A DNA stretch of 64,000 nt, taken from positions 124,001-188,000 of the forward strand of contig NZ_JALXFV010000002.1 in NCBI RefSeq assembly GCF_023699475.1, read 5' to 3'. The notes beneath the pieces are model-generated. The model did not search any database, had not been told where the DNA came from, and saw only the letters and a program-made list of their open reading frames with translations. Both the position numbers and the translations under genes were made by a program. Shown one piece after another: positions 49,079-54,297 of this stretch. The stretch is from Halomarina rubra. Its GTDB lineage: Archaea > Halobacteriota > Halobacteria > Halobacteriales > Haloarculaceae. Positions within the stretch are counted from its first letter, which is position 1. The number at the start of each line of letters is the position of its first letter.

Positions 49079-49126
49079 TCTCGCTAGTCATACACCCTTT
49101 TGTGGCGGGGCCGTGAACTCCGCGCC

Positions 49127-49621
49127 ATGAGCGACGACGACCCCACAGAGGAGACGCCGGAGGAATCGGCGGCGGACGAGGAACCGGCCGACGAGAGCGC
49201 GGACGCGGGCGAGGAGAAGTCGTTCCGCGAGCGCGTCGAGGAGATCCGACAACAGCGCGCCGAACAGCGCGAGGGAGAGGAGGGCGAGCGCTCGCCCGAG
49301 GAACGTCTCGAAGAGGCGTTCGGCGGCGGTGGCGAGGGCGGCCCCGGCGGGATGGGCGGCGGCAACCCGTTCGCCCAGATGATGGGCGGCATGATGGGCG
49401 GCGGTGGCGGGATGGGCGGCGGCCCAGGCGGGATGGGCGGTGGCCCGCCCGGCATGGGCGGCGGTCCCGGCGGCATGGGCGGTCCCGACCCGCGCGAGCA
49501 GGGCGACAACGCTCGCGCCAACGAGGAACTCGTCCGCGAGGTCCGGAAGGTCCGCGACGAGGTCCACGACGTGCGCCGCGAACTCGAGCGCATCGCCGAC
49601 GCGCTCGAAGGCCGGAACTGA
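49127..49621 (+). CDS. Gly/Met-rich low-complexity protein
   Basis: The product has 164 residues. An acidic N-terminus (EETPEESAADEEPADESADA) leads to a helical segment (RERVEEIRQQRAEQREGEEG). About 50 residues of GGMGGG/GGPGGM repeats follow, and then a C-terminal coiled coil (ELVREVRKVRDEVHDVRREL). No domain is recognised. The Met-rich glycine tract might bind metal or drive assembly. A cccttttgtgg box near 49097 lies about 27 bp upstream of the ATG. The composition differs strongly from other genes here. Confidence 0.75.
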   Translation: MSDDDPTEETPEESAADEEPADESADAGEEKSFRERVEEIRQQRAEQREGEEGERSPEERLEEAFGGGGEGGPGGMGGGNPFAQMMGGMMGGGGGMGGGPGGMGGGPPGMGGGPGGMGGPDPREQGDNARANEELVREVRKVRDEVHDVRRELERIADALEGRN

Positions 49622-52624: not shown

Positions 52625-52634
52625 GGCTATACAC
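52625..52634 (+). promoter_or_regulatory. TATA-like element of the VOC-flavin reductase unit
   Basis: The sequence ggctatacac is centred about 27 bp before the GTG at 52656 and supports that start. Confidence 0.55.
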
Positions 52635-52655: not shown

Positions 52656-53279
52656 GTGACCGACGACATCGCCGTCAGCGCGGACCGACCGGACAGCACC
52701 GTCCACGTCGAGGGGACCGACCACGTCACGCTCGTCGGGTCGAACGTCGAGGACACCGTCGCGTTCTACCGCGACGTGCTCGGGATGCGCCTCGTGATGC
52801 GCCAGCCGAACCTCGACCGCTCGGAGGTGACCCACCTCTTCTTCGACGCGGGCGACGGCCGCATGGTGACGTTCTTCTGCGAGGAGGACCGCGAGTCCGC
52901 CGACGACCAGGACCCCGGCGTCGGCGCGGTCCACCACCTCGCGTTCCGTCTCGACCCGGACCGGTTCCGCGAGACCCGCGAGAACCTGAAGGAGTCGGGA
53001 CGGCGGTTCTCGGAGTTCGACCGCGGGGCGTTCCACAGCCTCTACACGAAAGACCACAACGGCCTCATCGTCGAACTGGTCGCGGACAAGTTCGTCGTCC
53101 CCGACGACCGCCGCGCCGAGATTCTCGCTCGTGCCCACGCCCTGCGCGTCGAGGCGGGCGCGGAGTTCGTCCGCGGCGAGGACCTGCGAGCGGCGCTGGA
53201 GGCGCTCGACCTCCCCGTCGAGGCCAACGACCTGCCCGACGCGCCGACCGGGACGGACGTCTCGCCGGAGCGAGACTGA
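52656..53279 (+). CDS. VOC (glyoxalase/dioxygenase) family protein
   Basis: The product has 207 residues with a GTG start. It contains paired beta-alpha-beta-beta-beta modules: GTDHVTLVGSNVEDTVAFYR, then VGAVHHLAFRLDPDRFRET and the metal Glu in NGLIVELVADKF. An extra C-terminal part of about 60 residues follows. The pattern resembles ring-cleaving dioxygenase-like VOC proteins (MhqO/CatE class), although it is shorter than MhqO. It leads a flavin-reductase unit under a palindromic operator. Confidence 0.82.
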   Translation: MTDDIAVSADRPDSTVHVEGTDHVTLVGSNVEDTVAFYRDVLGMRLVMRQPNLDRSEVTHLFFDAGDGRMVTFFCEEDRESADDQDPGVGAVHHLAFRLDPDRFRETRENLKESGRRFSEFDRGAFHSLYTKDHNGLIVELVADKFVVPDDRRAEILARAHALRVEAGAEFVRGEDLRAALEALDLPVEANDLPDAPTGTDVSPERD

Positions 53280-53324
53280 ATGGAGGGTCGCTGAATGGAG
53301 GGTCGCTGAATGGAGGGGCCACCC
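53277..53324 (+). repeat. Triplicated 15-bp start region creating two four-codon minicistrons
   Basis: The unit tgaatggagggtcgc occurs at 53277-53291 and 53292-53306 with a partial third copy at 53307 onward. Each unit carries a stop, an ATG and a ggagg Shine-Dalgarno. The result is two minicistrons, ATG-GAG-GGT-CGC-TGA (MEGR), at 53280 and 53295. Then the true flavin reductase start at 53310 follows in the same frame. Confidence 0.85.
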
Positions 53325-53894
53325 GAGGAGTTCGGGTCGGGCTACCGCCTGCTGTCGAGCGTCGTCGTCCCCCGGCCAATCGCGTGGGTCGGCAGTTACG
53401 ACGCCGACGGCACGCCGAACCTCGCACCGTACTCGTTCTTCAACGTCGTCTCGTCGTCGCCACCGGTCGTCTACTTCGCGCCCGGCGGCACCGGCGAGCA
53501 CCGCAAGGACAGCGCGAACAACGCCATCGAGAGCGAGGCGTTCACCGTCCACGTCGTCACCCGCGCGTTCGCCGAGGCGATGAACGCGACGAGCGCGACG
53601 CTCGCGCCCGAGGAAGACGAGTTCGAACACGCCGACCTCGACCGGGTCGACGCGACCCACGTCGACGCCCCGCGCATCGCGGACGCGCCGGTCGTCCTGG
53701 AGTGTGACCTGTACGACACCCAGGAGATCGGCGCACAGACCCTCGTCTTCGGCGAGGTGGTGTACGCCCACGTCGACGACGACCTGCTCACCGACGGGAA
53801 GCCGGACGTCAGAGAACTCGACGCGGTCGGGCGACTCGCCGGGAACTACTACGCCAGCACCGACGACCGGTTCCGACTCGAACGCCCGGAGTGA
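53310..53894 (+). CDS. Flavin reductase-like FMN-binding protein
   Basis: The product has 194 residues, MEGPPEEFGSGYRLLSSVVV at the start. The flavin reductase split-barrel shows PRPIAWVGSYDADGTPNLAP, YSFFNVVSSSPPVVYF and DSANNAIESEAFTVHVV. It would bind FMN and reduce flavin or act on a flavin-dependent substrate. The start region is triplicated (see the repeat). Co-transcribed with the VOC gene. Confidence 0.87.
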   Translation: MEGPPEEFGSGYRLLSSVVVPRPIAWVGSYDADGTPNLAPYSFFNVVSSSPPVVYFAPGGTGEHRKDSANNAIESEAFTVHVVTRAFAEAMNATSATLAPEEDEFEHADLDRVDATHVDAPRIADAPVVLECDLYDTQEIGAQTLVFGEVVYAHVDDDLLTDGKPDVRELDAVGRLAGNYYASTDDRFRLERPE

Positions 53895-53907: not shown

Positions 53908-54291
53908 TCACTCGGCGGTGATGTCGGCCTCGGCTTCGGGGTCCGCCGGCGGCGTCTCCGGGTCGACGACGCTCCCGTCGAGCCACTCGTCGGCCCAGCA
54001 CTCGATCTCCTCGAACACCGGTTTGAGCGAACAGCCCTTCTCGGTCAGCGAGTAGAACGTCGCCACCGGCGCGTCCTCTTCGAGTCGCCGGTCGACGAAG
54101 TTCGTCTCCTGGAGGTCGTCCAGTACGCGCGACAGCGTCCGTGAGGACGCCCCCGTCGACCGCTTGAGTTCGTTGAACCGTTTCTCGCCGTCCTGCAGGT
54201 CGTGCAGGACGATGAGTCGCCACTGCGACCCGATCTGCTCTATCGAGTCGATGACCACACACGCCTCCTCGTTGTACCGCTCACCTGACAT
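53908..54291 (-). CDS. HxlR-family transcriptional regulator, candidate redox sensor
   Basis: The product has 127 residues from the ATG at 54291. HxlR winged-helix motifs are present: QWRLIVLHDLQDGEKRFNEL, TGASSRTLSRVLDDLQE and FYSLTEKGCSL. A single N-terminal Cys11 (RYNEEACVVIDSI) sits where thiol-sensing HxlR proteins such as YodB carry their redox Cys. Two more Cys are in the C-terminal half. It is convergent with the flavin reductase and divergent from the esterase. Confidence 0.87.
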   Translation of the reverse strand: MSGERYNEEACVVIDSIEQIGSQWRLIVLHDLQDGEKRFNELKRSTGASSRTLSRVLDDLQETNFVDRRLEEDAPVATFYSLTEKGCSLKPVFEEIECWADEWLDGSVVDPETPPADPEAEADITAE

Positions 54292-54297
54292 CGATGT

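Follow-up and report, generated by a model that had tools for sequence, protein, structure and literature searches.

A tripled stop-start junction, with two four-codon minicistrons, between a VOC-fold gene and a flavin reductase gene in a Halomarina genome

In a haloarchaeon of the Halomarina group, a gene for a VOC (glyoxalase-fold) protein and a gene for a flavin reductase-like protein are separated by two minicistrons of four codons each, so placed that a stop codon abuts a start codon three times in succession. We put at about even the chances that these minicistrons act as stepping stones which keep translation of the second gene coupled to that of the first, with some loss at each step, the passage of ribosomes and the attenuation being what the arrangement of the letters leads us to propose. 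A grander role, as a relay that passes one and the same ribosome from minicistron to minicistron and whose unit count, open to change by slippage, fixes the ratio between the two gene products, seems to us quite improbable.

The junction and the genes that it joins

Read directly from position 53277 on the forward strand of the window (the whole 64,000-nucleotide stretch that was analysed), the junction is TGA ATGGAGGGTCGC TGA ATGGAGGGTCGC TGA ATGGAGGGGCCACCC. The three TGAs share one frame, and translation through them gives ...VSPERD-stop-MEGR-stop-MEGR-stop-MEGPPEEF, which bears out the order of products in the preliminary description. At each of the three steps TGA and ATG abut with 0 nt between them, and the true gene-to-gene gap, from VOC stop to reductase start, is 30 nt. 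Minicistron 1 (53280..53294) and minicistron 2 (53295..53309) are both ATGGAGGGTCGCTGA. TRF reports a tandem repeat at 53276-53317 with a period of 15, 2.8 copies, 100% match and a score of 84; units 1 and 2 are identical and unit 3 matches at 12 of 15 positions.

The description of each unit as supplying a stop, an ATG and a GGAGG suitably spaced for the next ATG also proved accurate. GGAGG lies 8 nt before ATG2 (53282..53286) and 8 nt before ATG3, the reductase start (53297..53301), while ATG1 is preceded only by a GGAG of ancestral type at 9 nt (53267..53270). In each ATG the final G is also the first letter of GGAGG, so that motif and start codon overlap, and the GGAGG serving ATG3 sits within minicistron 2, i.e., it is a Shine-Dalgarno (SD)-like motif inside a translated frame. 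The 16S tail in the host genome contains CACCTCC and ends ...GGCTGGATCACCTCC. Predicted pairing to the tail AUCACCUCC is -8.6 kcal/mol for the motif before ATG2 and likewise -8.6 kcal/mol for that before ATG3, against -4.4 kcal/mol in H. oriensis.

Are the flanking reading frames real genes? The upstream one (52656..53279, forward strand, 207 aa, stop TGA 53277-53279) matches Pfam PF00903 (E 8e-12), and the position of its GTG start is kept in sister species; the downstream one (53310..53894, forward strand, 194 aa) matches PF01613 (E 3.8e-28) and its MEG start is conserved there also. In both, against sister species, dN (~0.06-0.11) is well below dS (0.29-0.42), so that each has been a working gene throughout that span of evolution. 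A TATA-like element, CTATAC, stands on the same strand at 52627..52632, 29 nt ahead of the GTG that starts the VOC gene; it is common to both sister Halomarina, and in all three species lies 28-29 nt before that GTG. It is likely to be the promoter of a two-gene transcript that would be leaderless or nearly so. With that box before the VOC gene, and G+C-rich sequence before the reductase gene (A+T is just 31% over the preceding 90 nt), the two genes are likely to share a single transcript.

The neighbours examined were BKACE, VOC, flavin reductase and a helix-turn-helix regulator. The last (53911-54294, reverse strand) resembles RrpB/RrpA redox regulators at scores below the NCBIfam cut-offs, and an ORF from 54441 onward on the forward strand, near the VOC-reductase pair, looks like a phospholipase/carboxylesterase. 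We take the VOC and flavin reductase genes with these neighbours to recall bacterial quinone-detoxification clusters of the mhq/YodB type.

Rarity and origin of the array

The host genome (4.07 Mb in 16 contigs; nearest named relative found, Halomarina oriensis) has other short tandem runs. With a threshold of 14 matched bases at periods of 5-60 bp, seven runs passed in 404 kb of it (~10% of the genome); the junction array was fourth by length, and the others we read as being for the most part simple repeats of low complexity. No comparable run occurred in five Markov shuffles of the window, against 27 matched bases at period 15 here, and the shuffles together with the 404-kb background rule out a chance origin of the repeat. 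Elsewhere in the window, a Gly/Met-rich repeat (GGMGGGP...) at 49379-49487 on the forward strand, within a 173-codon ORF (49100-49621), drew several overlapping tandem-repeat calls.

TGAATG is rare in this G+C-rich genome, at 0.07 per kb for both strands together, and pairs of it with 3-33 bases between occur at two other sites genome-wide, neither of them a repeat. A dispersed repeat is ruled out, GGAGGN5TGAATGGAGG being present in the host genome at the junction alone. Among 392 genomes of the order the three-step chain with period 15 was found in one, and among 146 of the family so was the two-step form with its SD, in each case only at the Halomarina junction. A loose pattern of TGAATG with variable gaps has matches in 24 of the 392, but the six arrays inspected among them showed no chain of stop-starts joining two genes: five have a period that is not a multiple of 3 or an early in-frame stop, and the sixth (G369), with a 36-bp in-frame period, lies opposite a 496-codon ORF. 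Another haloarchaeon (L147, G184:C1, about 423600-423740) has, after a gene end, six TGAATGATTCGG units in tandem with a period of 20, and five of them are the full TGAATGATTCGGCGGTAGAG, each containing ATG ATT CGG CGG TAG.

That the array is an old conserved feature is ruled out by the orthologues, which carry one junction. Both sister Halomarina that hold the orthologous pair (H. oriensis and G006), whose reductases are 87-88% identical to that of the host, have a single TGA abutting ATGGAGGG with a gap of 0. A gap of 0 also occurs in Haloprofundus, in Halogranum (TAG abutting ATG), in Halobium (TGA abutting ATG) and Halalkalirubrum (TAA abutting ATG), and the remaining close pairs have a single junction with a gap of -1, -4 or +5 nt. 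Larger gaps at four loci (L019, L020, L025 and L039) are the product of an estimated start and not of direct reading, at two others (L021 and L024) the gene matched as VOC is a different one from the reductase's neighbour, and at L051, a locus further removed, the VOC and reductase genes overlap by more. From the single junction in the sisters and most orthologues it follows that this form is ancestral, and that, as the sequence comparison reads, the 30-bp insertion is derived and specific to the host lineage. The preliminary description thus counted correctly a 15-bp unit present twice; what it took for a third, diverged copy is the undiverged start region of the reductase gene, the two units being the insertion.

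In G006 the locus is present twice, at G006:C2:430082-444607 and about 470000-484500 (L094/L095), about 40 kb apart. The two copies match perfectly along 14.5 kb or more (one end was not reached), and the doubling reflects either a recent duplication of the segment or an artefact of assembly.

How did the tripling arise? Probably by a local DNA-slippage accident. The GGAG at 53267 and that at 53282 form a direct repeat spaced 15 bp, and in H. oriensis the GGAG beginning at the ATG likewise has another GGAG exactly 15 bp ahead of it; it is plausible that such a pair was the slippage seed of the duplication. The inserted units, however, though identical to each other, depart at 4 of 15 bases from GGAGCGAGACTGAAT, their presumed source, and this suggests that a first duplication was older and a second recent. 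The history is to that extent not clean, and this counts against the relay explanation.

Ribosomes at the tripled junction

In the relay explanation, slippage between GGAG motifs 15 bp apart would have tandemly expanded an ancestral zero-gap junction by 30 bp and, the unit being a multiple of 3 with a stop, a start and an SD, every copy would be a junction competent for reinitiation. Ribosomes finishing the VOC gene would restart at ATG1, make MEGR and stop, restart at ATG2 for a second MEGR, stop once more and begin the reductase at ATG3. The abutting stop-starts would in this way keep the genes coupled over a distance too long for a plain spacer, at the cost of some ribosomes per step. In Haloferax volcanii, where termination-reinitiation (TeRe) couples abutting genes, reinitiation is at 40-60% of native with a gap of +13/14 nt and absent once the gap reaches +22/23 nt (PMC10666635), and from that gap dependence one would expect 30 nt of plain spacer to leave the reductase uncoupled. 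The geometry on which chained coupling had been proposed is correct and the reading agrees with published haloarchaeal biology; the proposals that the chain tunes reductase translation and that its copy number could vary by slippage are the parts that found no support. Local RNA folding at the junction revealed no clear on/off switch. Reinitiation after as few as four codons is, to our knowledge, without an archaeal precedent, and ribosomes on very short ORFs may be lost by peptidyl-tRNA drop-off. A passage of PMC6728339 cites an adjacent UGAGUG pair of Sulfolobus that was not coupled in vitro.

The main rival to the relay is that the insertion is a neutral slippage accident, the minicistrons being idle and the level of reductase mattering little. 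Ribosomes would start at ATG3 directly, either de novo on its strong GGAGG or after sliding about 30 nt. This is possible, with clearly less than an even chance: the array is in one genome only and relatives manage without it, the host genome has other short tandem runs comparable in size, and through the insertion ATG3 has come to have a better SD than its H. oriensis counterpart. Both routes to ATG3 are, however, at odds with what is known from H. volcanii, where de novo initiation at the intragenic SD was not seen (PMC6728339) and gaps of at least 22 nt abolish reinitiation (PMC10666635). Moreover, a random 30-bp insert need not keep three abutting in-frame stop-starts, whereas duplication of the unit does so automatically.

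Or do the minicistrons act as decoys, with ribosomes lost at each TGA, reductase output lowered and the VOC:reductase ratio changed? Each has an SD-like motif before or after it, and three serial handovers multiply losses (as an arithmetic example, 0.7 per step leaves 0.34), but the orthologues give no sign of selection for a lower ratio and we consider decoys unlikely. A regulated or phase-variable element, in which slippage adds or removes 15-bp units and the reductase is thereby tuned between cells or strains, is very improbable; the perfect identity of the two units and a frame-neutral length of 15 bp would suit it, but just 2.8 copies of such a unit make an array of low mutability, the sister species are single-copy, and adaptive tuning or phase variation is unsupported. 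Assembly or sequencing error is scarcely credible even with the array known from one assembly, as 42 bp is shorter than ordinary sequencing reads and the flanking genes are intact. TGA read-through to a VOC-reductase fusion was judged unlikely, there being three TGAs to pass and orthologues that use TGA, TAG or TAA.

The locus is a natural construct for asking whether an archaeal post-termination ribosome can reinitiate repeatedly after only four codons, and whether stop-start abutment rescues coupling over a distance at which a plain spacer abolishes it, with the single-copy junction of the sister species as matched control. It also illustrates how coupled gene junctions could grow longer and yet stay coupled.

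Comparison with known coupling devices

A literature search for minicistron or tandem-repeat coupling found no archaeal example, in keeping with the initial remark that no haloarchaeal case was described, though devices in which a mini-ORF couples translation are known in bacteria (ORF-11, MIRUs). Closest in host are the TeRe pairs of H. volcanii (Huber et al. 2019, PMC6728339; 2023, PMC10666635), which likewise have abutting or overlapping stop and start codons and an SD inside the upstream reading frame. TeRe spacing is overlap or a separation within about 10 nt, and each Halomarina step is at 0 nt, with the GGAGG 8 nt before ATG3 inside minicistron 2 in the place of the TeRe SD. However, the known TeRe pairs have one junction, and here two four-codon ORFs intervene and put 30 nt between the upstream stop and the true start.

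The mycobacterial MIRUs (reviewed in PMC12548453) are also repeated small-ORF units at a gene start with stop-start coupling, and since they couple to the gene at the insertion site their insertion barely harms expression. They are dispersed in many copies, seemingly mobile, and have -4 nt spacing, whereas the Halomarina unit is of 15 bp, has 0 nt gaps and is at one site, where it was apparently made by local duplication. Very short ORFs that alter downstream translation are further exemplified by the two-codon minigene of axe-txe (PMC8708949) and by mgtQ between mgtC and mgtB (PMC8092293), but these are single units thought to act via mRNA stability, or RNA structure and ribosome abortion, and not by a stop-start chain. 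In ORF-11 / ORF-17 of integron attI1 (reviewed in PMC8876359) a mini-ORF whose ATG has a GGAG SD at 8 bp passes ribosomes on to the next gene; it is bacterial, stands ahead of the first cassette, helps cassettes without initiation signals of their own, and is not a tandem repeat between genes. Ribosome handover by mini-ORFs is already known in bacteria, and what the Halomarina junction brings is a very small, locally generated archaeal variant of it and not a new class.
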